This document shows, one piece after another, positions 8,440 through 37,192 of a stretch of DNA of 37,192 bases (position 1 is its first letter; the number at the start of each line of letters is the position of its first letter). The translations under genes and the position numbers were made by a program. The stretch lies in the IMG/VR virus record IMGVR_UViG_3300023178_004086, positions 1 through 37,192 of that record. One strand, 5' to 3'. The notes under the pieces are model-generated. The model worked only from the letters and a program-made list of their open reading frames with translations, was not told the DNA's origin and did no database searches. Origin of the DNA: a virus.

Positions 8440-9116
8440 TATATATCTCTAACGCTTGATATTAATTTCTTATTAGATATTTTATTTATCTCTTCGGTTT
8501 TGAGTGAACGATATGATTTCTTAGGCTCTTGTTTGAATATTTTTGCGTATGTTGCTTTTACTCTACTTGTAACTTTCTTTGGTGTTCTTGGAGCAATCAC
8601 AGGCTCTTGCTCCACTATCTTTTTAGGTGTTTCTTTTTTATCTAATGTATATTTACGACCTTCTTCTTCTTTTGGTTTTTCTTCTACAATCTTTTCCTTG
8701 TTGTCAACCTCAACAACATCTTCTACCACACCAGTATTTGATTTTTTAGATATAGATGCAACTTGAATAGGTGGCTTGTTATCTTCACCACTCTTTACGA
8801 TAGCAGCTTCAACTCTTATACTCTTTTCAAAATTTACTACACCATTCCAAGCAGGAAAATATCTGTTATTACAAATTACTTCCAGTGTGCAATTCTTATC
8901 ACCTGTTTTCATTTTATCTTCCATTACTGGAATTTTTACAGCATACCCACCTTCTTCTTTTTGTCTTGCATTAAAAGTATAATTAAACCCGCCATCTTCT
9001 ACAATAAAACGCACACGCACATTTTTTTGCTCTTCTATGCTATTAGAAGAAACATTTATAGAGATGTCAAAATCTAATTCTTCTTGCTCGTCAATTCTTA
9101 CAGAAATATCACTCAT
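8439..9116 (-). CDS. Unknown protein: N-terminal beta domain with a charged flexible tail
   Basis: I do not recognise this 225-residue protein. Residues 1-100 look like a beta-sandwich, with alternating strands such as VRVRFIVED, GGYAVKIPVM and CTLEVICNNRYFPAW. From about residue 105 it becomes Lys/Glu/Pro rich and probably disordered (KIVEEKPKEEEGRKY, APRTPKKVTSR), ending in a basic segment. The gene overlaps its upstream neighbour by 8 nt and its downstream neighbour by one base, so it belongs to the same translational unit as the gp15-like gene. A small virion or assembly protein is plausible from position alone. Confidence 0.75.
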   Translation of the reverse strand: MSDISVRIDEQEELDFDISINVSSNSIEEQKNVRVRFIVEDGGFNYTFNARQKEEGGYAVKIPVMEDKMKTGDKNCTLEVICNNRYFPAWNGVVNFEKSIRVEAAIVKSGEDNKPPIQVASISKKSNTGVVEDVVEVDNKEKIVEEKPKEEEGRKYTLDKKETPKKIVEQEPVIAPRTPKKVTSRVKATYAKIFKQEPKKSYRSLKTEEINKISNKKLISSVRDI

Positions 9117-9480
9117 CGGCTACCTCAGATTCTTCCAAAACTTCTCTTCTCTTTACAGATTTAACTTCCACTTTATAAATATCATCGTAGATTACATTAG
9201 CATCTTTCATATCTATTTTTATATTTTGCTTCTCGTCATATTCTATCATGTTTTTGTAATTTATTTTTTTACCAAACAAATTTGTTTTTATTTCCCAATG
9301 TTCTACGCCATCATAAAATTCTTTCGGGTCAAATGGTTTAGACCTTCTTGCCCTACGACGACCTGTGTTAGCACCACCACCTTTAGGTAAATTAGCACCA
9401 TATCCATAAGTGACAACTCTACTATCTGGACCTAAACCCATTGTCACAATGCTGCTTTCTAATAATTCAGATAATTTCAT
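9109..9480 (-). CDS. MKL-family small basic protein, unknown function
   Basis: There are two tandem ATG codons, at 9483 and 9480. I choose 9480 because it gives the N-terminus MKLSELLESS, matching six other proteins in this window, and because the resulting TGATG is a one-base stop-start overlap with the giant coiled-coil gene. The 123-residue product carries L-L-E followed by Ser at residues 6-9, a possible prohead-protease site. Then come a Gly-rich stretch (VVTYGYGANLPKGGG), an Arg cluster (GRRRARRSKPF) and a charged beta-rich C-terminus. I recognise no fold. It lies about 17 kb downstream of the next nearest family member, among tail and fibre genes. Head-internal location is inferred only from the N-terminal peptide. 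Confidence 0.75.
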   Translation of the reverse strand: MKLSELLESSIVTMGLGPDSRVVTYGYGANLPKGGGANTGRRRARRSKPFDPKEFYDGVEHWEIKTNLFGKKINYKNMIEYDEKQNIKIDMKDANVIYDDIYKVEVKSVKRREVLEESEVADE

Positions 9481-12400
9481 CATACAGGCACCCTTAAGAA
9501 AACTCTTTCTGCGTTTGGTTGACCATTTTCATCTTTCAAATCAAACTCAACTATTGGCGTTGAGCCGTCTGTATCATAAATAAATAGTTTTTGCTCTGAT
9601 GGGTCTACCTGCCATTTACCAATTTGTGTTTGTAGTATGGTGTTTGCGGTATTAACATTTTGGTCTACTTTTGTCAACAAGCTATCAAGCTTCTGATCCG
9701 CTGTTGTCAAGTCATCAGTTGCTAGTTCAGCTGTGACGCTCACCATGTCAAGGTCAAGTTTATCTATTTTGCTTTCAATACTAATAGTGTCTGACTCTAT
9801 TCTATCAACAATTAGTTTTGTTGTATCGACAATGGTTTCTATGTTGGCAGTTTCAGATTTAATATCATCTACCACTGTATCTATTGTAATAATATTTGCG
9901 TTTGCCGTATCCAATTTAGTTTCAATATTATCTGTATCAACCTGTATGCTGTCCACCACTGTATCAACTGTGTCAACTTTTCCTTCTATGTCCGTTACTC
10001 TGCTAATAATATCATCAAGCTTCTGGTCAGCAGTTGTTAAGTCATCTGTTGTTAGCTCTGCTGTAATAGAAACAACATCAAGGTCAATCTTATTAATTTT
10101 TTGTTCTATGCTTACAAAGCTTGTTGACTGTCCGTTGATTAGAGATGTTACATCAGCAGCGATATTTGTAATCTTGTCATCCAATGTTTCTGCATCATAG
10201 GAGCCAATCTCTGCTGTGACAGAAACCATATCAAGATCCAGTTTATCAATCTTTGTCTCAATGCTTGTAGTATCGACCTGCATAGCATCTACTTTGGAAA
10301 TCAAACTATCAAGTTTCTGGTCTGCTGTGGTCAAATCGTCTGTTGCTAATTCGGCAGTAACAGAAATCATATCAAGATTTATTTTATCAACAACATTATC
10401 AACAGTATCAATCTTTCCTTCAATAGCTTGTGTGTCTAATAGAATGTCATCTACATTGCTATCAATGGTTGCTAATGAGTTTATAATAGTTGTATGGTCT
10501 GTTTGTAGTTGTGTTATGCCAGCCTCAATGTCTGTGCCTTGTGTACCTAACCCACCAACATCGGCTTGAATAGAATCAACAATACTATCAATGGTTACAA
10601 TATTTGTATTGGCAGTGTCAACTTTGGTTTCGATAGTGCCAACAGAAGATAGTAGACTGTCCAACTTTTGATCTGGTGTTGTTGGGTCGCCAACTGCCAA
10701 CTCCGCTGTTAGACTTACAACATCGGTATCAATCTTTGTATTAAGATCTATGATACTTGTTGTGTCTATTTTTAAGTCATCAACTTTATTCTCAATGCTT
10801 ATAGTATCAACTTCAATATTATCCACCACTGCATCTATTGTGTCAATTTTACCATCCAATGTAATTATGTTGGTGTTAGCAGTATCAATCTTGGTTTCTA
10901 TAGAATTTGTATCTACTTGAATTGCGTCAGCAATAGTATCTATGGTGTCAACCTTGCTATCCAATGTAGTTATGTTTGTATTAGCAGTGTCTACTTTTGT
11001 TTCAATACTATTCGTATCAACTTGAATAGAGTCAACCACAGAATCTATTGTGACAATGTTAGCGTTTGCTGTATCTAGTTTAGTTTCGATATTGTCCGTG
11101 TCTAATTGAATGCTGTCAACAATGTTGTCAATAGTTACAATGTTTGTGTTTGCTGTATCTACTTTTACTTCTACACTACCAACCGAAGCAATTATACTAT
11201 CAAGTTTCTGATCTGTTGTTGTTAAGTCATCAGTCACAAGCTCTGATGTTACGCTAATCATATCAAGGTTTATTTTGTTTGTATCAACTATAATATTTTC
11301 TGTATCAAGTTTTACAGCATCAACCTTCGATTCAATGCTTGTAGTATCAACTTCTATTCTATCTACTGTGCTATTTATTGTGTTGATTTTGCTGTCAATA
11401 CCAGTTATATCGGCAGCGCTACCCAAAACTGTTGTCTCTATAGTATCTACTTTGGTTTCTATGCTATTTGTATCGATTTGAATATTATCAACTATGTTAT
11501 CTACAATATTTAGTTTAGCCTCTATATTGTCTGTATCAATTTGTATGCTATCAACTACATTGTCAATAGTAATAATATTAGCATTTGCTGTATCTATCTT
11601 TGTCTCAATGCTCGTAGTATCTGTTTCGATTCTAGCTGTTGTATCTCTAACCACTTGCACATCTAACATATGGTTGTCAACTTTGATGTCTATGGTTGAG
11701 ATATCCGCCTGCACCGCATCGACCTTTGCTTCTATGTCAGAACTGTCTGATAGAGAAGCATCTATTTTTGTATTTAGGGTATCTACCTTTGTATCAATTG
11801 TGTTAATGGTGTTGGTCAAAGACGATAGGTCTCCATTGCCATCAATCTTTGACTCAATACTAATTGTATCAACTTCTATTCTATCAACTACAGTATCTAT
11901 AGTATCTATCTTCGCCTCTAGTGTAGAAAAGTCTGTGGGGGTGATGTTTGAAACATCAACTGTCAAATCATCAACCTTAGTCTCTATACTGTTTGTGTCA
12001 ACTTGAATACTATCAACAACGGTATCAACAATATCAACCTTAGTATCTAATAATCCAATTGTGTTAATCAAACTATCAAGCTTCTGGTCGGCAGTCGTCA
12101 AATCATCAACAGCTAATTCTGCTGTTACAGAAACTACATCAATATCAATCTTGTCAACTTTTGTATTAACGTCGTCAATAACATTATCTATTGTGTTTAA
12201 TTTAGTATCCATCAACGTAGTAATAGATTGTATATCATCAACTACTGTATCCACGGTATCTATCTTGCCATCCAATGTGCTCATTGAAGCAACCAAGCTA
12301 TCAAGCTTCTGGTCTGCTGTCGTTAGGTCATCCGTAGTTAATTCAGCAGTAATAGAAATAACATCAGCATCTATCTTGTTTAATATGTCGTTGTTGTTTG

Positions 12401-15400
12401 TTATATTAGATGTATCAACCTTGATACTATCAACCACTGTGTCGATTGTATCAATCTTGCCTTCAACAGCATTTACATCAACCTGTATAGCGTCTACGAT
12501 ATTGTCAATGCTATCTATCTTACCATCGACAACACCGATGCTTGTGCCCAACGAAATAACACCACCATCAATGTCATCAACTTTTGTTTCTATGCTTATA
12601 GTATCAGCTTCAATTCTATCAACCACCGTATCTACTGTATCAATCTTGCCGTCCAATGTATTGACAGAAGATATAAGAGCGTCGAGTTTCTGGTCAGCAG
12701 TCGTCAAATCGTCTGTGGCAAGCTCGGCAGTTATAGATATAACATCATCACCCAACTTTGTTACTGCAGCATTTAGAGGTAATAGAGAAGTCAGATTGAC
12801 ATCCATGCCATCAACTATGCCATCAATAATATCTATCTTAGCCTCAAGCCCAGCTGTGTTGGTGTTGATGGTACTTAATTGAGTGTCTAAATTGCTGGTG
12901 TTAGTGTTAATGGTATCAACAACACCGTCTAATGTTATTATGTTTGTATTAGCTGTATCAATCTTGGTTTCGATAGAGCTTGTATCAACCAAAACAGAAT
13001 CCACTTTTGTTTCTATAGAAGTTATAGCGTTGCTATCAACCTGTATAGCGTCAACCTTCCCATCAATAACATCAACTTTTGTTGTTAGTGCGTCTGTTTT
13101 AGTTTCTATACTGTCAGTGTCTAACTGAATACTATCCACCACATTATCAATAGTTGTTATGTTTGCATTAGCAGTATCTATTTTTGTTTCAATGCTATCT
13201 GTATCAATTTGAATGCTATCAACGATATTGTCAATGGTGGCGACATTTGTATTTATAGTGTCAGCTTTTGCATCTATTGATGATGTGTCTAGTTTTATAG
13301 AATCAACTACACTGTCTACTGTATCAATTTTTGTTTCAATATTATTTGTGTCAATTTGAATGGTGTCTACAACCGTATCAACAATATCTATTTTTGTCTC
13401 TACGTTACCCATAGATGTAATTAAGTTATCCAGCTTTTGGTCAGCAGTAGTTAGGTCATCTGTTTCCAACTCTGCTGTTATAGACACAACATCAACATCT
13501 ATTTTGTCTATTTTGGCAACTATATCGCTGTTGTCTAAGTCAAGGTCATTAATATCTGATAATATGTTTGTGGTGTCAATCTTTATATCGGATATTATAC
13601 TTCTGATTGTTGTAGTGTTATAAGAATCAATAGCAGAAGTTATGCTCACGACATCTGCCATAGATTTTGTATGGTCATCTAATAGTATATGAGTATCAGT
13701 TTCGATTCTGGATACTGTGTCATCTATCAAAGATAGTTGTGTGTCAATATTTCCGGTATCAATTAATAAGTTGGTAGTGTCAACAATCACAGTATCTATT
13801 TTAGCATCAGTAGCAGCAATATCCGATATTGCTGTGTCAATCTTTGTTTCTATGGAAATCGTGTCTGTTTCTATTCTGCTTGCTATATTTTCTATGTTAG
13901 TGTTTTGTACGCTCAAAGAATCAACAGATAATTGCACTGTTGCAACATCATTAGTTAAAGATGTGATGTTTGTATTAGTTGTGTCAACTTTTGTTTCTAT
14001 AGAAACTGTATCAGCCTTTACTAAGCCTATGTTTGTGTTGATCGTGTCTACTTTTGTATCTACCAAAGAAATATCACTGCTTATATTAGATAGTGTTTGA
14101 ACTGTTGTGTTTAGGTCGTATGTGTCTAAATCAGCAGTAACAGAAATCATATCTGCATCAAGCTTCACTAATTTATCATCCAGCGATTGTATGTTGTTAG
14201 TCGTGTTTCCTTGACTAATGCTCAAAGAAGATATGTCAGATATTATAGTATCTACTTTAGTATCTAATGTTGTTAGGTCGTATGCACCGATTTCTGAAGT
14301 TACAGAAACCATGTCGGCATTTATTTTGTCTAAAGAAGATGGGATACTGTCTGTGTTGTTGTCTATTTCTTCGACAATGTTTCTTAGTGTAATTACATTG
14401 TAAGAATCTATGCTCGCTGTTACGCTTTCAATATCTAGATTAGATTTATCTACTTTATCGTCTATAATGTCAATCTTTGAATTTAGGGTGTTGTTTTGAA
14501 CATCCAACTCAGCTAAGTCATCTAAAATATCATCAAGTTTTGTGTTAACGCCACCAGATCCTAATTCAGCGGTAACTGTTACAACATCAACATCTATCTT
14601 GTCAACAACCGTATCAATAATATCTACCTTTGCTTCTATGTTGTCGGTATCAATCTGTATGCTGTCTACAACATTATCAACAACGTCAATTTTGTTATCC
14701 AAAGTGGCTATATTTACTTGAATATTATCGACATTAGCGTCAATAACATCTATTTTGTTTTCCAAGCCAGTGCTGTCAAATGTTATATTGCTCACATCAA
14801 CTGTAAGTGAATCAACTTTTGACTCTATGCTAGTTGTGTCTACTTCAATTCTATCTACTACGGTGTCAATATCTACAACCTTAGTCTCTACATTACCCAT
14901 TGAGTTCAACAAGCTATCAAGCTTCTGGTCGGCGGTTGTTAGATCGTCTGTTGATAATTCAGCAGTTATGCTTACTACATCAGAATCTATTTTATCTAAT
15001 GCATCTTGAATAGCTGTGCCGCCAGTGTTGAATGATAGGGTGTCTACTTTTCCCTCAATAGACACAGTATCTACTTTTATAGAATCAACCACTGTGTCGA
15101 TTGTATCTATCTTTGTCTCTATGCCAGACAAATCAGTAGTGGGAATGTTTGCGACATCTGTTGTGAGAGAATCAACCTTGCCTTCAATGCTAGTTGTGTC
15201 AACCTCAATTCTATCAACAACTGTATCAATGGTATCTATTTTTGTCTCAAGGCCAGAAAGATCAGTGGTAGGTATGTTGCCAATATCAGTAATGGCTGTA
15301 TCTACCTTACCTTCGATGGAAATAGTATCAACCTCAATTCTATCAACTACCGTGTCGATAATATCAAGTTTAGCTTCTACAGTAGATAAATCAACATTAA

Positions 15401-16556
15401 CATTCAGGTTATCTATTTTGTTTTCTATGCTAATTGTATCAACTTCAATACGATCTACAACGGTGTCAATGGTGTCTATTTTAGCTTCAATACCAGATAA
15501 GTCAGTAGTGGGAATGTTACCAATATCAGTAATAGCAGTATCGACTTTTGTTTCTATGGCTATAGTATCTACTTCTATTCGATCTACTACTGTATCGATA
15601 GTGTCGATCTTTGTTTCTAATCCGCTCAAGTCTGTTGTTGGAATGTTAGCAATATCATTATCCAAATCATCTACTTTAGCAATTAAGCTGTCAAGCTTCT
15701 GGTCTGCTGTAGTCAAATCATCAGTAGCTAATTCAGATGTAACAGAAACTACATCTAAATCTATTTTGTCAAGATGCTCTACTATGTCTCCAGAGGCACT
15801 AAGCACATCTCCAGATACACCAAGCACCATCGTTGATGTGGTCCATAAGTCAGTAGCAATACTAGAAAGGTCTGTAATTACAGTGCCTATTCTATCAAAT
15901 ATGGTTTGTAGATTTTCAGTGCCACCTTGCAACGTATCTTGAGCATTAGTGATAGCTGTTTGGATATTTGTTATATCACCAATAGAGCCACCAAGATTTC
16001 CTAACACATCACCCCTAACAGAAGTTATGCCTTGACCGAAGGAACCTTCAACCGTGTGTTCGCTGCGTAATGAAGACCAAACTGCAGTTGCCATTGATTG
16101 AATATCTTCATCAGTTATTGTGTTGACACCATCAACGATGTTAGACCTAACAAGAGAAATTGTTACTCCAGGAACGGGATTAACAACGTTTCCACCTGTC
16201 TCTCTTGTAAAAATATTCCCAACTACATTTAAAATGTATTGACCATTCCATGGCTGAATACGCCATCCGTTTTCTAAGAAGAATGTGCTACCTACAAATA
16301 ATCTATCTGTGATGGGGTCACCACCAACCACAGACATCGCTTGCACAAATCGAGAGTTATTGTAATAGGACGCAGCTACCCAAGATTTCCAACCTTCGTA
16401 AATATCCTCCCTAACATCTAAATCCGTAATTCCTTCAGCAACCACTATAAGTTTGTTAGGTCCATCAAAGGCAACTTTAGTGTCACCAAAAAATAAAGGC
16501 GGATCGTAATCTTCCCAAAAGGCCCAGTGGCCGTAATTCAGCGTCAAGTAGGGCAT
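9480..16556 (-). CDS. Giant coiled-coil fibre protein (2358 aa)
   Basis: Residues 1-150 form a globular N-terminal domain with EDIYEGWKSWV, VGGDPITDRL, FFLENGWRIQPW and VRSNIVDG, a module I know from virion proteins of many tailed phages. MATAVWSSLRSEHTVEGSFGQ-like sequence follows at about 155-175. From about residue 220 to 2300 the chain is almost wholly coiled coil, with Ile/Val at 3-4 spacing and Asp/Thr/Ser between, for example KIDTIDTVVDRIEVDT. It is broken by short Pro/Gly turns (NIPTTDLSG) and by 17 inserted modules ending in DLTTADQKLDSLI or variants. The last 50 residues (GKWQVDPSEQKLFIY, FLRVPV) form a small beta cap that normally pairs with the AVW-GSFG motif. The ATG immediately follows the upstream TAA. 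A trimeric whisker or long fibre is the likely product. A tape measure is less likely because of these end domains. Confidence 0.8.
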   Translation of the reverse strand: MPYLTLNYGHWAFWEDYDPPLFFGDTKVAFDGPNKLIVVAEGITDLDVREDIYEGWKSWVAASYYNNSRFVQAMSVVGGDPITDRLFVGSTFFLENGWRIQPWNGQYILNVVGNIFTRETGGNVVNPVPGVTISLVRSNIVDGVNTITDEDIQSMATAVWSSLRSEHTVEGSFGQGITSVRGDVLGNLGGSIGDITNIQTAITNAQDTLQGGTENLQTIFDRIGTVITDLSSIATDLWTTSTMVLGVSGDVLSASGDIVEHLDKIDLDVVSVTSELATDDLTTADQKLDSLIAKVDDLDNDIANIPTTDLSGLETKIDTIDTVVDRIEVDTIAIETKVDTAITDIGNIPTTDLSGIEAKIDTIDTVVDRIEVDTISIENKIDNLNVNVDLSTVEAKLDIIDTVVDRIEVDTISIEGKVDTAITDIGNIPTTDLSGLETKIDTIDTVVDRIEVDTTSIEGKVDSLTTDVANIPTTDLSGIETKIDTIDTVVDSIKVDTVSIEGKVDTLSFNTGGTAIQDALDKIDSDVVSITAELSTDDLTTADQKLDSLLNSMGNVETKVVDIDTVVDRIEVDTTSIESKVDSLTVDVSNITFDSTGLENKIDVIDANVDNIQVNIATLDNKIDVVDNVVDSIQIDTDNIEAKVDIIDTVVDKIDVDVVTVTAELGSGGVNTKLDDILDDLAELDVQNNTLNSKIDIIDDKVDKSNLDIESVTASIDSYNVITLRNIVEEIDNNTDSIPSSLDKINADMVSVTSEIGAYDLTTLDTKVDTIISDISSLSISQGNTTNNIQSLDDKLVKLDADMISVTADLDTYDLNTTVQTLSNISSDISLVDTKVDTINTNIGLVKADTVSIETKVDTTNTNITSLTNDVATVQLSVDSLSVQNTNIENIASRIETDTISIETKIDTAISDIAATDAKIDTVIVDTTNLLIDTGNIDTQLSLIDDTVSRIETDTHILLDDHTKSMADVVSITSAIDSYNTTTIRSIISDIKIDTTNILSDINDLDLDNSDIVAKIDKIDVDVVSITAELETDDLTTADQKLDNLITSMGNVETKIDIVDTVVDTIQIDTNNIETKIDTVDSVVDSIKLDTSSIDAKADTINTNVATIDNIVDSIQIDTDSIETKIDTANANITTIDNVVDSIQLDTDSIETKTDALTTKVDVIDGKVDAIQVDSNAITSIETKVDSVLVDTSSIETKIDTANTNIITLDGVVDTINTNTSNLDTQLSTINTNTAGLEAKIDIIDGIVDGMDVNLTSLLPLNAAVTKLGDDVISITAELATDDLTTADQKLDALISSVNTLDGKIDTVDTVVDRIEADTISIETKVDDIDGGVISLGTSIGVVDGKIDSIDNIVDAIQVDVNAVEGKIDTIDTVVDSIKVDTSNITNNNDILNKIDADVISITAELTTDDLTTADQKLDSLVASMSTLDGKIDTVDTVVDDIQSITTLMDTKLNTIDNVIDDVNTKVDKIDIDVVSVTAELAVDDLTTADQKLDSLINTIGLLDTKVDIVDTVVDSIQVDTNSIETKVDDLTVDVSNITPTDFSTLEAKIDTIDTVVDRIEVDTISIESKIDGNGDLSSLTNTINTIDTKVDTLNTKIDASLSDSSDIEAKVDAVQADISTIDIKVDNHMLDVQVVRDTTARIETDTTSIETKIDTANANIITIDNVVDSIQIDTDNIEAKLNIVDNIVDNIQIDTNSIETKVDTIETTVLGSAADITGIDSKINTINSTVDRIEVDTTSIESKVDAVKLDTENIIVDTNKINLDMISVTSELVTDDLTTTDQKLDSIIASVGSVEVKVDTANTNIVTIDNIVDSIQLDTDNIETKLDTANANIVTIDSVVDSIQVDTNSIETKVDTANTNITTLDSKVDTIDTIADAIQVDTNSIETKIDTANTNIITLDGKIDTIDAVVDNIEVDTISIENKVDDLKIDTTSIIDLNTKIDTDVVSLTAELAVGDPTTPDQKLDSLLSSVGTIETKVDTANTNIVTIDSIVDSIQADVGGLGTQGTDIEAGITQLQTDHTTIINSLATIDSNVDDILLDTQAIEGKIDTVDNVVDKINLDMISVTAELATDDLTTADQKLDSLISKVDAMQVDTTSIETKIDKLDLDMVSVTAEIGSYDAETLDDKITNIAADVTSLINGQSTSFVSIEQKINKIDLDVVSITAELTTDDLTTADQKLDDIISRVTDIEGKVDTVDTVVDSIQVDTDNIETKLDTANANIITIDTVVDDIKSETANIETIVDTTKLIVDRIESDTISIESKIDKLDLDMVSVTAELATDDLTTADQKLDSLLTKVDQNVNTANTILQTQIGKWQVDPSEQKLFIYDTDGSTPIVEFDLKDENGQPNAERVFLRVPV
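9650..15800 (-). repeat. Coiled-coil repeat array, 11 canonical plus 6 diverged modules
   Basis: The unit K-I-D-x-D-V-V-S-V-T-A-E-L then DDLTTADQKLDSLI occurs in near-canonical form 11 times, near 9690, 10020, 10315, 10665, 11205, 12080, 12305, 12690, 13430, 14930 and 15690. Six shorter variants that keep the VSVTAE part but replace the second half lie near 10190, 13630, 14130, 14300, 14410 and 14580. Between them run many copies of the IDTVVDRIEVDTISIETKVD type. Copies share 20-nt stretches of DNA but vary at third codon positions. Confidence 0.8.
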
Positions 16557-26648: not shown

Positions 26649-27017
26649 TTATCCCACCTTTATCTTTTTAGTTTTCCATAATCTTTTTATGAAATTCTCC
26701 AAACTAATTTGATGTGGGATTTCTCCAGAAGTAACTTTACCAATTAACATTTGCAGGAAATGTCTTTTTATCTTCTTATCTTTAACTAGTTCTGGATATT
26801 CATCATATAATATATCAATAGCTCTGTCTATTAACTGAGCTTCGATATCTGCATCCAATGTTTGTGTTAGTTTGTCATCAACATTATTGCCGGGTGTAGG
26901 TCTGTAACCAACGTTATAGGCAGAAAATGATGCTGGATTTCTGCCATGATAGTTGGAATGAGGTTCTGCTTGTGGAACATAAAAATCCGCCTCTTTTAAA
27001 ACATCTCTAAGTTTCAT
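26649..27017 (-). CDS. MKL-family protein next to the prohead protease (122 aa)
   Basis: The N-terminus MKLRDVLKEADF includes L-K-E followed by Ala at residues 7-10, a textbook gp21-type cleavage site. A loop-rich, aromatic middle follows (NYHGRNPASFSAYNVGYRP), then a helical C-terminus (DADIEAQLIDRAIDILYDEY; HFLQMLIGKVTSGEIP; FIKRLWKTKK). It lies one base after the protease stop. In T4 the position after the protease is held by the scaffold gene 22, but this protein is too short and not Glu/Lys-rich enough to be a standard scaffold. Head-internal protein is my preferred reading. Function is unknown. Confidence 0.75.
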   Translation of the reverse strand: MKLRDVLKEADFYVPQAEPHSNYHGRNPASFSAYNVGYRPTPGNNVDDKLTQTLDADIEAQLIDRAIDILYDEYPELVKDKKIKRHFLQMLIGKVTSGEIPHQISLENFIKRLWKTKKIKVG

Positions 27018-31482: not shown

Positions 31483-31710
31483 CTAATTTATATTTAAAAT
31501 CTTTAACCCCATAAATATCCCAATAGGAACAGCTGCTCCCGCTAACCCCCAAATACCAGATTTGACTTTTAAAGAAGATATATCAACATTAACCTTTTCT
31601 AACTTATTATCCATCTGTAACAATAAAGAGTTATGTCTCTCTAACTCACTTAAAACTAATTTTTGATATTCGTGCCAATCACCTTTTTGAGCTTCAGAAT
31701 ATTTAGCCAT
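31483..31710 (-). CDS. Small coiled-coil protein with a C-terminal membrane segment (75 aa)
   Basis: Residues 10-50 form an amphipathic helix or coiled coil (YQKLVLSELERHNSLLLQ, NKLEKVNVDISSLKV). A hydrophobic stretch of about 20 residues follows (IWGLAGAAVPIGIFMGLKIL), then NIN at the end. This layout resembles the XhlA-type phage membrane proteins and some holin-associated proteins. It lies between terminase and portal, which is unusual for lysis genes, so a head or injection role is equally open. TATAAGGA precedes the ATG, a fair ribosome site. The upstream spacer of 81 nt contains a large AT-only hairpin. Confidence 0.7.
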   Translation of the reverse strand: MAKYSEAQKGDWHEYQKLVLSELERHNSLLLQMDNKLEKVNVDISSLKVKSGIWGLAGAAVPIGIFMGLKILNIN

Positions 31711-31766: not shown

Positions 31767-31796
31767 TATAAAATAAATATAAACATTTATTTTATA
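31767..31796 (-). terminator. Perfect AT-only stem-loop at the end of the terminase gene
   Basis: Twelve bases (TATAAAATAAAT) pair with a perfect inverted copy (ATTTATTTTATA) around a 6-nt loop. One arm contains the terminase stop codon, at 31792-31794. With only A-T pairs the helix is weak and not followed by a long U-tract. It may be a transcript end, an mRNA-processing site or a protein-binding palindrome. Position at a gene end argues for the first two. Confidence 0.35.
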
Positions 31797-33441
31797 ACAA
31801 CCATCTTAAATCTTCAACCTGTTCTTTATTTACTTTCATAGAATAAGATTCATTACCAACAGAATTAGAATTACTACTTATTCCGAACTCATAAGGAACA
31901 GGGTTAAAAGAAAGGTTAGACATTAAATGTTGAGTTATATCATTATCAGCATTAGTAAACTTTATAGTTGTGTTTCTTACATACATACCAATAGCTAAAG
32001 ACATTACTAAATCATCATTGTATCCGTCCAAAGCTTGTGGCTTACCATTATGAAAGATAAAAGTTTCTAATTCTTTCATAGTTCTTTGTGAGTGTAAAAT
32101 AAACTCATGTTGCCTTAAATCCTCTTCCAGTCGAGCTATCGCTGCTGGCCTTGTTCTTGAAGACATTGTAAATCCGGGAACTGCATTTTTAGGAGGATTG
32201 TATGGGTCATAAAATAATTGATCTCTTGCATTACTTTCGTGTAATTTAGCTAAATCTTTTATTGTCCAATACACGTTCTTATATTCCATCTCTACAATCT
32301 TCATTACTGTATGATGACCCATTGATGCATTTTCAACTACTATAAAAGCGTTGTTATATTGAACAGCTGTGTTGTGTATTAGGTGAGCATAAACATCTGT
32401 AGCTACCTTACCCTTATATTCAGCCACTTGCTCATAATTTTCAATATCTATGACATGAAAAGCTGAATAATCTTCTCCATCACCGCGAGCAACATCTGCA
32501 GATATAATATATTTTTTGGTATAATCCGGATATTTCCAAACCCACAAACCCTTATCAACCCAAGTTCTTTCTAATGGTTCCCTAACGAATGGACGATAAC
32601 CATCGTCAAGTGTCTCTTGTTCTGTTGGATGCTCTAGATACCACTCCAAAGCCTTAAGTGAAATAACATTACTACCAGATTGAACAAAGTCACAATCATG
32701 CTCTTGAGCAAAAGCTTGATCCCCAATCTTCTTGCGTGTCTCTCTCGCCCAATCATCATCGTGGTCTGGATGAACCGACCAGTGTAATTTTATTGGATTG
32801 AACCCTACTATCTTATTACCTATCTTTTCTGTAATACCAGCCTCCGCCTCATTATATATCTTGTGAAACCAGTTACCAACTCCATTAGGTGAAGATAATG
32901 CTATACAATCACCACCAGTTGCTAGTGTAGGTTGAGCTGCTATCCATATACTATCCATCTTATTAATAAAAGCTGCCTCATCAACAATGAGCAAACTTAA
33001 TGCCTCTGAACGAGCCGCATCTGGTGTGGAAGCCGATGCTTTTATTTTAGAACCATTATTTAATTCTAAACTTTGTTTATTATCAGTAATAAAATCTGCT
33101 CTCATCCACTCCGGAATACCCTCTAAAAAAACTCTTACTTTATCAACCATATTTTGAGCAGTATCTCTTTTTGTAGCAAGAATATATATTTCTTTGTTCT
33201 TAAAAAAGTTTGACAACCAAGCAGCATATCCAGCTACTAATGTGGATATACCCAACTGCCTACCCTTGAGAACTATGTTATATGAATTGTCTAAAAAATG
33301 CTGAAGTGTGTGTTCTTGGAAATCCCATAACTCAAAAGATATAATTCCCCTTAATGGATGCCTAATTCTGCCGTATTTTTTCATAAAGTAAGAAGGATTC
33401 TTTCTGCACTCTATGTATTCAGCTGTTTGTTGTTTATCCAT
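31792..33441 (-). CDS. terL: Terminase large subunit, T4 gp17-like
   Basis: The 549-residue packaging motor carries all expected parts. ATPase: Walker A GRQLGIST (60-67), Walker B LLIVDEAA (150-157) and coupling motif SSPNG (183-187). Nuclease of RNase H fold: ADVARGDGEDYSAFHVID with Asp316, IVVENASMG with Glu370, and GYNDDLVMSLA with Asp476/Asp477. It pumps DNA into the prohead through the portal and cuts the concatemer. It is a little shorter than T4 gp17 (610 residues), mostly at the N-terminus. Its ATG overlaps the upstream stop by one base (TAATG), so its translation is coupled to the WYL-like gene. No small-terminase gene is recognisable immediately upstream. Confidence 0.97.
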   Translation of the reverse strand: MDKQQTAEYIECRKNPSYFMKKYGRIRHPLRGIISFELWDFQEHTLQHFLDNSYNIVLKGRQLGISTLVAGYAAWLSNFFKNKEIYILATKRDTAQNMVDKVRVFLEGIPEWMRADFITDNKQSLELNNGSKIKASASTPDAARSEALSLLIVDEAAFINKMDSIWIAAQPTLATGGDCIALSSPNGVGNWFHKIYNEAEAGITEKIGNKIVGFNPIKLHWSVHPDHDDDWARETRKKIGDQAFAQEHDCDFVQSGSNVISLKALEWYLEHPTEQETLDDGYRPFVREPLERTWVDKGLWVWKYPDYTKKYIISADVARGDGEDYSAFHVIDIENYEQVAEYKGKVATDVYAHLIHNTAVQYNNAFIVVENASMGHHTVMKIVEMEYKNVYWTIKDLAKLHESNARDQLFYDPYNPPKNAVPGFTMSSRTRPAAIARLEEDLRQHEFILHSQRTMKELETFIFHNGKPQALDGYNDDLVMSLAIGMYVRNTTIKFTNADNDITQHLMSNLSFNPVPYEFGISSNSNSVGNESYSMKVNKEQVEDLRWLL

Positions 33442-33770
33442 TAAAATATCCTAGGGGTAAATTCTCTTCTTTGTTTATTTGCAGATAATATGTTTTCTAA
33501 TAAAAAGGACTTTATACTTCTTGTTCTACCAGTAGTATCATATGCATATAAATAAACCTTACCATCTTCTTCTTTTAACTCATAAGGTTCTATTATACGA
33601 GTTATAACTCTATTTGTTTCTAGCTTTCGATAAATGATCCTTACTAAAACCTTTTGTTGGATTGATTCTATTATCGTCTTGTTTGTCCTCTTTACCATTA
33701 AGTTTGGAGCTTCTCTTATCAAATCTATCACTCGACTTGATCTCTTTAGTTTTGACCGATTGTTCAACAT
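33441..33770 (-). CDS. WYL-like mini-protein translated just before the terminase
   Basis: I take the ATG at 33770, preceded by AAAGGA four bases upstream. An ATG at 33698 is possible. The 109-residue product has a basic N-terminal arm (NRSKLKRSSRVIDLI) and, from about residue 40, one compact beta domain: VLVRIIYRKLETNR, ITRIIEPYEL, GKVYLYAYDTTGRTRSI and FLLENILSAN. The pattern of an early Arg/Tyr strand, a Pro-Tyr strand, then VYLYAYD and R-x-R-S-I-K resembles the WYL ligand-binding domain, here without the usual helix-turn-helix. WYL domains bind nucleic acids or nucleotides in regulators. The first 161 nt also code for the end of the preceding gene in another frame. It overlaps terL by one base. 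The assignment is from motif pattern only. Confidence 0.55.
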   Translation of the reverse strand: MLNNRSKLKRSSRVIDLIREAPNLMVKRTNKTIIESIQQKVLVRIIYRKLETNRVITRIIEPYELKEEDGKVYLYAYDTTGRTRSIKSFLLENILSANKQRREFTPRIF

Positions 33771-34344
33771 CAAATCCTTTTATTTTATCTACACCATAGT
33801 CTGGTTGTAGTTCTGATTCTATTTCGTTAGGCTTAGCCATTGTTTTAATCTTAACCAAAATCTTGAGATCTATAACCTCACCTGCCGCTCCTGCTGATGC
33901 TATCTTTGATACGGGCATTTTTTTATATCCCAATATTTTATGACCGTTAGATACTAAATCATATTTTAATTTCTTAACTAATTCTTCTTCATTTTTATTT
34001 GTTGCAAAAGGAACAGAAACAATCATCTTATATGTATAAACATTATTTTTATTTATATCTTGATCTGATAACTTCCATCTGGTAATAAACTTTGTTGCTT
34101 CTTTTTCGTTGTTGATTAAGGTTAATTGAGACTTCATTTTTAAAAGAGTATTTCTATCAAAGCCAAGGCTTGCTAATCTTGGAAAAAGAATACCAAAATA
34201 TTTCTCTGCTTTTTTTGTGTTTCCACTTGATTGAGCATCTAAAATAGAAAACACTATATCTTCTACGTTTGAGGTTTCTTCTTTTAGAAGTTCTAGTATT
34301 TCTTCCTTAATAACTTCTTTAAATTCTTTTAAATTATTGTTCAT
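33610..34344 (-). CDS. Unknown protein upstream of the terminase (244 aa)
   Basis: I start it at the ATG at 34344, which has GAGAG at good spacing. The in-frame ATG eight codons upstream (34368) has only a T-rich leader. Residues 1-90 are helical and acidic (EVIKEEILELLKEETSN; KKAEKYFGILFPRLASL). Residues 110-185 form an alpha/beta domain (YTYKMIVSVPFATN, LVSNGHKILGYKKM, IDLKILVKIKTM). The last 55 residues are polar and probably disordered, encoded in DNA shared with the WYL-like gene. No motif of a small terminase (helix-turn-helix) is visible, although the place upstream of terL would fit one. Function unknown. Confidence 0.7.
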   Translation of the reverse strand: MNNNLKEFKEVIKEEILELLKEETSNVEDIVFSILDAQSSGNTKKAEKYFGILFPRLASLGFDRNTLLKMKSQLTLINNEKEATKFITRWKLSDQDINKNNVYTYKMIVSVPFATNKNEEELVKKLKYDLVSNGHKILGYKKMPVSKIASAGAAGEVIDLKILVKIKTMAKPNEIESELQPDYGVDKIKGFDVEQSVKTKEIKSSDRFDKRSSKLNGKEDKQDDNRINPTKGFSKDHLSKARNK

Positions 34345-34401
34345 TTTTACTCTCTTATTAAAAGTCATAATAAATATAATAAAAAAACATTTTTTTGTAT
34401 A

Positions 34402-34671
34402 TTATTTTTTATTTCTTTTGTTATATTTTGACCAAGCAATTTGATAAGGTATTTCTGAATCTTTACCAAACCTATCTTTTAAATGTTTTACCATACGTTT
34501 ATAATTATCACCGGGGGGAGAATCTTCTTCTACATCACTACTATTAACTTCTTCTTTGTCTGAACCGCAAGATGATTCATCCTGTTTATCAAGAAGATTT
34601 TTTAACATCATTATGGTGCTCTTCTTAATAATTTTTTCATCAACCTCATTAATCAAATCGCCTAATTTCAT
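34402..34671 (-). CDS. MKL-family small charged protein (89 aa)
   Basis: It begins MKLGDLINEVDEKII, with I-N-E at residues 7-9 as a possible protease site. A helix (TIMMLKNLLDKQDE), an acidic Ser/Asp/Glu stretch and a basic C-terminus (KHLKDRFGKDSEIPYQIAW, then KYNKRNKK) follow. The C-terminal part recalls short phage motifs where a Lys/Gly segment precedes a YAIA-type helix. An AAGGA ribosome site precedes the ATG, in a 57-nt AT-rich gap. No function known. Head-internal location is inferred from the shared N-terminus. Confidence 0.75.
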   Translation of the reverse strand: MKLGDLINEVDEKIIKKSTIMMLKNLLDKQDESSCGSDKEEVNSSDVEEDSPPGDNYKRMVKHLKDRFGKDSEIPYQIAWSKYNKRNKK

Positions 34672-34681
34672 TTTATCTTCC

Positions 34682-35338
34682 TTATTTTTTTATTACTATT
34701 ATACAATTTAGAGCAAAAACAACACTCATAATATATTCCTGTATTACTTGAGGTATAAACTGTTCTCTATAAATTTTACTATTTTTATTATTAATACCCT
34801 CAACAACACCTTTAAAAATTTCAACAGTTGATCCGTTTGACCCAACACCATAATTCATTGAATTGCCATAAAGTTTTCTACCAGCAGTCCAGTAAGAAGT
34901 TTCAATATCTTCTATTATATATAAACCACCATTTTCTAATCTAGGAAATAAATTATTAAAGGTTTCTATTTGATGTGGTGGGTAATGAGATGCGTCGTCA
35001 ATAACTATACGTAACTCTGGAATATCCAGTTTATCAAGGTGATCAATATTTTCACCTTGCTTTATATTACTTAATAATGTTAGTCTATCTAGATTATCAC
35101 CTTGTTTTTGAATATCGCTTATTGAGTAATTATCCATATCAACACCATATATATTCATATTTTTAAAAAGCTCATGCCACATTCTTAATGATTCACCTTT
35201 TTGAATACCTATCTCAAGTAAAGAACCAGATTGATTATATAAGCTTTGAAAAAAGAAATCATATATTAAATGATATTTATGTAAAGAAATCTTATCTGTT
35301 GAATATTTTTCTCCTATCTTATGCATATGGTTTGACAT
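34682..35338 (-). CDS. SAM-dependent methyltransferase, MycE/MycF-like
   Basis: The ATG at 35338 follows GGAG at good spacing and gives 218 residues. Visible parts: an N-terminal GEKYSTDK with HKYHLIYDFFF (9-30); the SAM-binding glycine loop LLEIGIQKGES (40-50); YGVDMD (64-69); IVIDDASHYPPHQ (111-123), giving Asp115 and His118; and ENGGLYIIEDIETSYW (135-150), giving Glu143 and Asp144. This D-x-x-H ... E-D arrangement and the GEKY-TDK opening are typical of metal-dependent sugar O-methyltransferases of the MycE/MycF type, often found with polysaccharide genes. Substrate could be a host or virion glycan or a small metabolite. It has no MKL peptide although surrounded by MKL genes. The C-terminus ends in a hydrophobic strand (VFALNCIIVIKK). 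Confidence 0.8.
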   Translation of the reverse strand: MSNHMHKIGEKYSTDKISLHKYHLIYDFFFQSLYNQSGSLLEIGIQKGESLRMWHELFKNMNIYGVDMDNYSISDIQKQGDNLDRLTLLSNIKQGENIDHLDKLDIPELRIVIDDASHYPPHQIETFNNLFPRLENGGLYIIEDIETSYWTAGRKLYGNSMNYGVGSNGSTVEIFKGVVEGINNKNSKIYREQFIPQVIQEYIMSVVFALNCIIVIKK

Positions 35339-35339
35339 A

Positions 35340-35618
35340 TTAAGACTCCATTATATAAATAATAAGATTTTTTTGTGCATTACTGCCTATAATTAACCTA
35401 TGATAAAAATTTTTTGGAATATAAAATTCAGAATTTTCTGTTAGTTTTTCTGGCATTTTATTATCCATCTGTATATACCAATCGTCAGATTGTTTTACTA
35501 AAACTGTTCTGTCTTTTCTATCTCTGTGCCATACTAACTCATCCGAATCAACATCAGCTGAAAATTCTCTTTTAATATATTTTAACTTTCTTTGTTCTAT
35601 ATATGGTTTATCTACCAC
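35340..35618 (-). CDS. Small cupin-like protein (92 aa)
   Basis: Two tandem GTG codons (35621 and 35618) could start it. I prefer 35618 because GGAGG lies six bases before it and only three before the other. The product is all beta: DELVWHRDRKDRTVLV, DWYIQMDNKMPEKL, EFYIPKNFYHRLI and NLIIYI. The His in WHRD and the later YHR fit a compact single-domain cupin barrel. Similar short proteins occur in marine T4-like phages. Metal binding is possible but the classic first cupin motif is incomplete. It lies one base before the methyltransferase gene and may act with it on the same sugar or metabolite (inference). Confidence 0.65.
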   Translation of the reverse strand: MVDKPYIEQRKLKYIKREFSADVDSDELVWHRDRKDRTVLVKQSDDWYIQMDNKMPEKLTENSEFYIPKNFYHRLIIGSNAQKNLIIYIMES

Positions 35619-36199
35619 CACTTACCTCCACCAGATAGACCTAATGACTTTGCATATCTAGGAAGTCTACATGCCCAATATGAAGCTTTTGTCTTATCTT
35701 TAGCTTGTTCGCAATTATGTCTTGAAGCAAAAGCCTTCTTAGCTTTTGGATCTTTAAGTTTTACAGATAGAGATCCCCCACCACTCTTAGCACCAAAACT
35801 TACTTTCTTTACATTTCCAGTTTTAGGGTTCTTTACATAAACATAAAACTTTTTACTACCACCTCTTTTAGGTTTACCTAACTGAACCTTCTTGCCTTGG
35901 TATTCTGCTTCGTCAATTTCTTCAGATACATCAACCATTATTGGGCAATCAAGAGGAACTTTATTGCCTTCAAATTCTGCAAACTCACCAATATCTGTTT
36001 CCAATATTTCCATATCTTCTGCAGTAAGACCTTCTAATTTGCCATCATTATATTGTTTTCTAGCTTCTCTATATAAGGAGAAATAATTCTCACTTCCATT
36101 TCTAAAAACACTTTCTGAAAGAGGAATAGAATCTTTTTTATGAAACTTTATAGCTTCAGTAATAACTTTTTCTTTTTTTATTATTGTAGATAATTTCAT
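35612..36199 (-). CDS. MKL-family basic protein with a Lys/Gly-rich C-terminal domain (195 aa)
   Basis: It begins MKLSTIIKKEKVITEAIKF, with I-T-E followed by Ala at residues 13-16, a good gp21-type site. Residues 20-90 are acidic and helical. Residues 95-195 form the recognisable part: EYQGKKVQLGKPKRGG, KKFYVYVKNPKTGNVKKV, a Gly-rich turn, then FASRHNCEQAKDK and ASYWACRLPRYAK, ending GGGKWW. The same domain occurs in many marine T4-like phages as an uncharacterised protein. One His and two Cys (RHNC ... YWAC) might bind metal. Strong positive charge in the domain suggests DNA contact. The ATG overlaps the upstream stop as TAATG. Its last codons contain the ribosome site of the next gene. Confidence 0.8.
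   Translation of the reverse strand: MKLSTIIKKEKVITEAIKFHKKDSIPLSESVFRNGSENYFSLYREARKQYNDGKLEGLTAEDMEILETDIGEFAEFEGNKVPLDCPIMVDVSEEIDEAEYQGKKVQLGKPKRGGSKKFYVYVKNPKTGNVKKVSFGAKSGGGSLSVKLKDPKAKKAFASRHNCEQAKDKTKASYWACRLPRYAKSLGLSGGGKWW
35625..35629 (-). promoter_or_regulatory. GGAGG ribosome site that sets the GTG start of the cupin-like gene
   Basis: The minus strand reads GGAGGTAAGTGGTGG. The GGAGG sits inside the codons for the C-terminal Gly-Gly-Lys-Trp-Trp of the upstream gene. Spacing is six bases to GTG at 35618 and three to GTG at 35621, which favours the former. Confidence 0.6.
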
Positions 36200-36402
36200 T
36201 ATTTCTTATCTCCATCCATATAATTGAAAACTGATTGCACATAATCCAGTGCTTTTGTAATCTTAGATTGTGTCCATGCTGGTAACTCATCGCCATCTTC
36301 TATTTTATCTAACAACATTGATGCTATCTTGGCAGTTCTTTTTAACTCACTTCTTGCCATAGATCCTTCATCATCACCTTCAAGTAAGTTTTTTAACTTC
36401 AT
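36199..36402 (-). CDS. MKL-family small helical protein (67 aa)
   Basis: It begins MKLKNLLEGDDEGS with L-L-E followed by Gly at residues 6-9, a possible protease site. The rest is a two-helix protein (MARSELKRTAKIASMLLDKI, then LPAWTQSKITKALDYVQSVF) ending NYMDGDKK. The second half, with a Pro-x-W-x-Q-x-K-I-T-x-A-x-D-Y pattern, is a small conserved domain that I know from many marine T4-like phages, usually also with an MK-type N-terminus. GGAG precedes the ATG. Function is unknown. Packaging inside the head is inferred. Confidence 0.75.
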   Translation of the reverse strand: MKLKNLLEGDDEGSMARSELKRTAKIASMLLDKIEDGDELPAWTQSKITKALDYVQSVFNYMDGDKK

Positions 36403-36491: not shown

Positions 36492-36803
36492 CTACTTTTG
36501 CATTATAGCTTTTTTCTTAGGTCTACCCTTACTACCGTAATGTTTTCTTTTTCTTGCTACAGCATTCTTCTTATCTTTCTTAGACATACTTGCAGCAACA
36601 GACTTCTTACGGCACTTAGGATAAGCTCTTTGACCACCCTTACGAGACTTCTTACCGGCAGATGCTCCACAAGGCGGGTGACTACCGTCTTTGTTCTTAC
36701 GACTAACATCGACCCATTTTTCTCCAAACCATTTACCTAGTCCGGAATTCTTATAAACTTTTTCACTTAAATAAAGTGTATCCAACACTTCTCTTAGTTT
36801 CAT
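36492..36803 (-). CDS. MKL-family very basic Cys-containing protein (103 aa)
   Basis: It begins MKLREVLDTLYLSEKVYK; L-S-E at residues 12-14 is a possible protease site. The mature part would start with SGLGKWFGEKWVDVSRKNKD, then GSHPPCGASAGKK, a basic Gly-rich run, AYPKCRKKSVAASMS, and a final Lys/Arg tail. The W-V-D-x-S-R ... P-C-G ... Y-P-K-C-R pattern is a small family I know from T4-like marine phages. About a third of the residues are Lys or Arg, so DNA binding is likely, and two Cys might hold a metal. The ATG overlaps the upstream stop by four bases (ATGA). A nucleoid-like head protein is a reasonable inference. Confidence 0.8.
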   Translation of the reverse strand: MKLREVLDTLYLSEKVYKNSGLGKWFGEKWVDVSRKNKDGSHPPCGASAGKKSRKGGQRAYPKCRKKSVAASMSKKDKKNAVARKRKHYGSKGRPKKKAIMQK

Positions 36804-37192
36804 CCCTTAGATCTCCAAGATCCGCCATTCTTCTTATAATGTTTTGCTGCCCATGCGTTTGCATATGCTGAAGGATACACTTTGAACTTTCTCTTAGCTG
36901 CAGCTACAGAAGCCGCCCACTTCTTTTTATCTGTAGGTGTATTCTTTTCTGTAAAAAGTTTCACCTCAGCCATTTCTTTGCGAGTTATTCTTGGTTTATA
37001 ACCTTCTTTTTTTAACTCTTCTTCATCGCTAACGTGTGCATCATCAACATCATTAAAGAAATCATCTTTTTCATCATCCTCTAAGTCATCTATAGAATCA
37101 ATACCGTGTTTAGACATCATATCTCTAAACTTTTGTTGGTATTCGTCTTTATCACCCTTAGCTTCTTTTTTTAATAAATCTGTTAGTTTCAT
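36800..37192 (-). CDS. MKL-family protein with an AYANAWAAKHYKKNGGSW motif (130 aa)
   Basis: The ATG lies at the very edge of the window, but the MKLTDLLKKEAKGD start matches the family, so I take it as complete at the N-terminus. Residues 15-60 are acidic and helical (DMMSKHGIDSIDDLEDDEKD). Residues 85-130 are basic (KKWAASVAAAKRKFKVYPS, then AYANAWAAKHYKKNGGSWRS). This last motif is recurrent in small uncharacterised proteins of T4-like marine phages. Here the Glu after the MKL peptide sits in K-K-E-A, which does not fit the (L/I)-x-E rule as well as in the other six. The upstream ribosome site is outside the window. Confidence 0.75.
   Translation of the reverse strand: MKLTDLLKKEAKGDKDEYQQKFRDMMSKHGIDSIDDLEDDEKDDFFNDVDDAHVSDEEELKKEGYKPRITRKEMAEVKLFTEKNTPTDKKKWAASVAAAKRKFKVYPSAYANAWAAKHYKKNGGSWRSKG

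Follow-up and report, generated by a model that had tools for sequence, protein, structure and literature searches.

WYL domains have been described almost exclusively as ligand-sensing parts of bacterial transcription factors. The mycobacterial DNA-damage regulator PafBC is a large wHTH and WCX protein that senses ssDNA, and BrxR and CapW, which regulate BREX and CBASS, are wHTH-WYL-WCX repressors found in bacterial defence loci. Binding of ssDNA by PafBC is abolished when R211 and R214 are both changed to Ala, or by R181A or Y196A, while the effect of R208 was examined together with R181 and R204 in a triple mutant (PMC11804915). According to the CapW paper (PMC9122588), members of PF13280 generally differ at the ligand site. 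In Thermotoga elfii, the WYL domain of Pif1 is an accessory module of a DNA motor and binds ssDNA (PMC9964779, citing Andis 2018). Stand-alone phage WYL proteins are also already on record, since BFVD holds short uncultured Caudovirales entries named "WYL domain containing protein" (A0A6J5RNM4, 90 aa; A0A6J5M9T1; A0A6J5R1I3). What appears to be new at the locus described here is the conserved pairing of such a protein with a second one, the product of a gene we call X, in the packaging module of one phage lineage. In the full text of ~5.4 million open papers, WYL domain and terminase occur together in nine, and, judging by their titles and by passages of three of them, none reports a link between the two.

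The window, by which we mean the whole 37,192-nucleotide stretch of viral DNA that was analysed, carries a portal gene, a T4-type (gp21-type) prohead protease gene and a T4-type terminase gene, and the types of these three genes place it in a T4-like myovirus lineage. By TerL, the nearest named phages are Flavobacterium phage immuto (45%) and Microcystis phage Mel-JY01 (44%). The WYL gene is present as the earlier note on this DNA had claimed; it lies on the minus strand, although no strand was named there. Its coding part spans 33444-33770, with the ATG at 33770 and a TAA stop at 33441-33443, and the stop does share one base with the start of terL, as the note had pointed out; the junction reads TAATG. 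The features at this locus are as follows.

33610..34368, minus strand: gene X, 252 aa, with a helical N-half and a ferredoxin-like C-half, the usual neighbour of WYL (ORF, relatives, AF2)
33610..33770, minus strand: C-terminal tail of X, in another frame over the WYL start and absent from the X of relatives (alignment A2)
33775..33780, minus strand: Shine-Dalgarno-like AAAGGA, 4 nt before the WYL ATG and inside gene X (sequence)
33441..33770 (stop included), minus strand: free-standing WYL-domain gene, 109 aa (ORF, PF13280, AF2/Foldseek, purifying selection)
33480..33680, minus strand: WYL (Sm-type barrel) domain proper, residues 31-97 (Pfam alignment range and own-record search)
33449..33452, minus strand: Shine-Dalgarno-like AGGA, 7 nt before the terL ATG and inside the WYL gene (sequence)
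31792..33441, minus strand: terL, large terminase (packaging ATPase/nuclease), 549 aa (phrog_2, E=4e-51; PF03237, E=5e-17)

The profile search returned the WYL match on which the earlier assignment depended: PF13280 matched the 109-aa protein with 36.9 bits (E=3.7e-9; Pfam gathering cut-off 21.8) and also matched 15 of 17 aligned relatives at E<=0.1. The AF2 model made from the 17-sequence alignment (pLDDT 85.6) shows a helix at residues 17-39 followed by five strands, with residues 1-30 forming a disordered or helical N-terminus. When this model was compared with the PDB using Foldseek, the best matches were all WYL proteins, namely PafBC (E=5.9e-5), CapW and BrxR, followed by DriD. VIA Z scores were mostly 11-13 against WYL structures, compared with ~7 against Hfq, and reached ~12.5 for the PafBC WYL domains (PDB 6sj9, 9fnd), which have the same fold, as do BrxR and CapW. 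Since the Pfam score, the model and the structural matches agree, we regard the protein as a genuine WYL/Sm barrel. The free-standing BFVD entries are similar to it in size and predicted fold, at ~14-18% alignment identity. All 17 WYL proteins in alignment A3 are basic (pI 9.0-10.4).

The phage protein differs from the described systems in what surrounds the barrel. Pfam found the WYL domain alone above its cut-off, and neither Pfam nor AF2 indicated an attached HTH, WCX or enzyme domain, in agreement with the view that the domain stands free of any DNA-binding partner; regulators of the wHTH-WYL(-WCX) type begin with a DNA-binding domain and often end with a WCX domain, neither of which is found here. 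Thus, in contrast with the multidomain PafBC, the phage protein is a solo barrel that carries Leu90 and Asn93, and in contrast with the BrxR and CapW repressors, it is encoded by a head-module gene without HTH or WCX. The T. elfii Pif1 domain is fused to a helicase and uses an arginine pair, whereas the phage domain is encoded by a separate gene and lacks this pair. The idea that the gene is a broken piece of an HTH-WYL regulator was rejected, as no HTH-like remnant was recognised upstream and X shows no relation to HTH families.

The read-on of X into the WYL gene bears on whether the WYL frame is the correct one. The X tail runs over the first 161 nt of WYL, a read-on of ~53 codons that brings X to 252 aa, compared with ~200 aa in most relatives, in which X mostly terminates close to the WYL start. 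This frame is also open in L001-L005, which are separately assembled contigs of the window's own virus. The overprinted X tail of the window virus arose through loss of a stop codon. Of the two overlapping frames, that of WYL is the conserved one, and because X of relatives stops near the WYL start, the overlap is read as a lineage-specific read-on of X and not as a sign that the WYL frame is wrong. A spurious WYL ORF was ruled out by the Pfam match, the homologues and the dN/dS values. A single frameshifted X-WYL protein was rejected on other grounds: X usually ends near the point where WYL begins, and an ATG and a ribosome-binding site of its own serve WYL, so we treat the two as separate genes.

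The X family gave no Pfam or PHROG match of weight. In the AF2 model of one X orthologue (L017; pLDDT 80.5, pTM 0.53), the N-half is helical and the C-half has a ferredoxin-like beta-alpha-beta fold, and matches in the fold search were confined to the latter half (ribosomal S6/ACT-like, VIA Z 7.5-9.7). This fold is too common to point to a function. In L151, X is cut down to an MKL-type N-terminus and the ferredoxin-like half, which marks the latter as the constant piece of the protein.

Relatives were collected from IMG/VR by two TerL searches, with separate searches for WYL and X; the counts are limited to contigs from the TerL searches that extend 1.2 kb or more upstream, and the sets were de-duplicated by contig name. 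The WYL gene was found in 32/32 distinct contigs whose TerL is >=55% identical to that of the window (27 from the first TerL set, five of which are other assemblies of the window's own virus, and 5 from the second), and X was found in every such contig reaching far enough upstream. Among contigs with TerL <=48% identical, WYL or X was found in 0/30 and 0/49 (~79, although the sets may share a few). This distribution makes the WYL gene a marker of one phage lineage, and the gene is old in this uncultured T4-like lineage. The expectation that it would be conserved near terL therefore held within the lineage, in which no sufficiently covered member with terL lacks WYL.

The order X-WYL-terL was seen in the window branch, the L006/L100 branch, the L132 branch, L147, L148, L151 and L153 (TerL 55%), and gene order persists in five or more diverged branches. 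In most of the subclade with TerL at 70%, which includes L024, L026, L031 and L109, a gene that weakly resembles family-2 glycosyltransferases (PF00535 in L109, E=0.0016, below cut-off) splits WYL from terL (~780-860 bp). X is parted from WYL, by an 82-codon ORF, in L130, L133 and L134 only. The steadier partner of WYL is X rather than terL. The earlier note had held that WYL is made in ratio with the terminase; this claim is not supported, given the insert gene and the terL ribosome-binding site, since terL can start from its own site and strict ratio control is not implied.

Searches beyond the lineage gave no further relatives. Pfam found no WYL domain anywhere in the complete records of Immutovirus, Microcystis phage Mel-JY01 and LR756508, and no X was found in them either; absence by Pfam counts for little here, as the model misses G002 and G011, which are clear members of the 70% clade. 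For the same reason, database annotation will under-report phage WYL proteins. A tblastn search with WYL proteins of four branches against 50,697 phage records gave no convincing match, so that collection contains no known cultured member. The GTDB genomes scanned with the WYL profile, using strict search patterns, yielded no relative, and a cellular origin is unsupported. Locus L007 proved to be a chance match (28 residues antisense to a larger ORF).

We aligned the phage protein with PafBC to compare their ligand grooves, with PafB numbering inferred from the RxFRLDR motif. R58, Y73 and K87 align with PafB R181, Y196 and R208, so that this part of the PafBC site is kept, while the R211 and R214 positions are occupied by Leu90 and Asn93. 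BrxR also has Leu at the R211 position. Throughout the deep WYL alignment, R58 and K87 do not vary. Most members have Asn at the R214 position; invariance of this Asn was considered and then dropped, as the deep members L148, L151 and L153 carry Gly, Arg and His, respectively. Because the R214 equivalent is mostly Asn, classic WYL ssDNA binding may have been lost. Ligand binding by the groove is plausible from the aligned residues, but it would probably not be quite the same as that of PafBC or DriD.

Within branches, Nei-Gojobori dN/dS for WYL was mostly 0.07-0.3, which indicates purifying selection; between-branch values rest on near-saturated dS. Both X and WYL change much faster than the terminase, with dN in the window branch of 0.26-0.47 compared with 0.02-0.07 for TerL. 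When L015 (732-2378) was compared with the window (31795-33441), identity was 0.73 at the terL start and 0.99 past the terL end, with ~0.6-0.7 across X and WYL; dS was 1.45 in WYL and 0.70 in terL. This pattern suggests a past exchange between the two lines, with a breakpoint that probably lies near the terL 5' end, and X-WYL would thus be separable from the body of terL.

Our preferred reading, to which we assign a probability of only about 40%, is that WYL binds nucleic acid and acts together with X as an accessory of the head-filling (packaging) module. The single Sm-type barrel, with its basic surface, would bind nucleic acid or a nucleotide-like ligand, and it would work as a unit with X, with which it may pair physically. 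The unit could then act on packaging, for example by presenting DNA to the terminase motor or by tuning the motor, in the way that other phages' small terminases do, or that the Pif1 WYL domain of T. elfii does for its helicase. We count in favour of this accessory role the WYL fold, the X-WYL-terL synteny, the lineage-wide presence, the purifying selection, the basic charge, the invariant R58 and K87, the T. elfii Pif1 precedent and the fact that no small terminase (TerS) was recognised among the window genes scanned. Against it, adjacency to terL is not universal because of the insert gene, the arginine at the PafB R214 position is mostly replaced, X and WYL change at a much higher rate than TerL, as would not be expected of a core motor part, and the relatives with TerL <=48% have neither gene beside terL, with both genes also missing from three complete phage records in this group. 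A conserved stand-alone WYL protein in a head module would extend the WYL family to virion assembly or packaging, and X and WYL form a compact two-protein unit that is directly testable with purified TerL.

A bolder version, in which X and WYL are a new type of packaging regulator that replaces the small terminase in genome recognition and motor control, strikes us as quite unlikely. WYL or X would recognise the genome and the pair would stimulate TerL. The two genes do lie directly before terL, at the position of gp16 in T4-type phages, and WYL is a basic protein with the fold of a nucleic-acid binder. Like WYL, T4 gp16 is small, and its gene directly precedes that of the large terminase; it consists of an HTH, a coiled-coil ring and a C-terminal domain and raises the terminase ATPase 50-fold or more (PMC9958956), and we found neither sequence nor fold resemblance between the two. 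The AF2 models of X and WYL do not show the coiled-coil ring architecture of TerS: that of WYL has neither HTH nor coiled-coil core, and that of X has a helical N-half. As the earlier note had remarked, no small terminase is seen, for PHROGs recognised none among the window genes scanned, with no TerS match for WYL, X or their neighbours. This absence is uninformative, however, since TerS is not obvious at the terL locus of relatives with TerL 43-48% identity either, which lack X and WYL, so that a TerS missing beside terL is nothing special. The window is also a 37-kb fragment, and the glycosyltransferase-like gene intervenes in one subclade. Were this reading true, a WYL domain would for the first time be known from a viral machine for packaging DNA, and a different fold would solve genome recognition in T4-like phages. 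Unlikely, though less so, is that X and WYL are head-internal proteins that enter the prohead, are perhaps trimmed by the protease and are ejected with the DNA, the barrel binding DNA or host nucleotides. Their fast evolution would fit, as would the start of X in several branches with an MKLxxLLxE-like peptide that resembles T4 capsid-targeting sequences (MKLHKVLLSEQ in L109, MKLQDVLKEE in L151); the same kind of start is seen in six other window ORFs, and the window also encodes a gp21-type protease. In the window branch, WYL carries a conserved [LV][IV]xEA stretch near its N-terminus, but WYL of other branches lacks it, and X has no clear MKL start in the window branch or the L006 branch.

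Anti-defence genes usually vary, in our judgement, whereas WYL is conserved among head genes in every lineage member covered, which speaks against a regulator that senses a nucleotide or ssDNA infection signal and tunes late transcription, or that blocks host WYL regulators through mixed dimers. PafBC, CapW and BrxR are WYL proteins that act as regulators, but the phage protein has no DNA-binding domain, no WCX dimerisation domain and a partly changed ligand site, and we hold this role to be improbable. Least credible to us is a pure protein-protein adaptor, in which the Sm barrel no longer binds a ligand and is a structural component attached to X: the ligand-site arginines are partly lost and X and WYL are nearly always neighbours, yet the groove residues R58 and K87 never vary and the protein remains strongly basic.

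Several further observations concern the remaining window genes. Six otherwise unrelated ORFs, all on the minus strand, start with an MKLxxLLxE-like peptide: 36800-37192 (MKLTDLLKKE), 36199-36402 (MKLKNLLEGD), 35612-36199 (MKLSTIIKKE), 34402-34671 (MKLGDLINEV), 26649-27017 (MKLRDVLKEA) and 9109-9483 (MKLSELLESS). T4 capsid-targeting sequences are N-terminal propeptides of 10-20 residues (PMC7411985), and since these starts resemble such sequences, which the prohead protease cuts, the products may be capsid-internal. Between terL and portal, a 75-aa ORF without a family match and with a C-terminal hydrophobic stretch lies at 31483-31710 (minus strand); similar small ORFs that share an LKVKxGxWG-like stretch occupy the same place in L006, L100, L109, L130 and L132. 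The head-gene region also contains a methyltransferase gene (34682-35338, minus strand; phrog_21658, E=6e-25; PF13578). Finally, a 2358-aa protein encoded at 9480-16556 (minus strand) consists largely of IDTVVDRIEVDTISIETKVD-type repeats and is perhaps a coiled-coil-rich tail or fibre protein.
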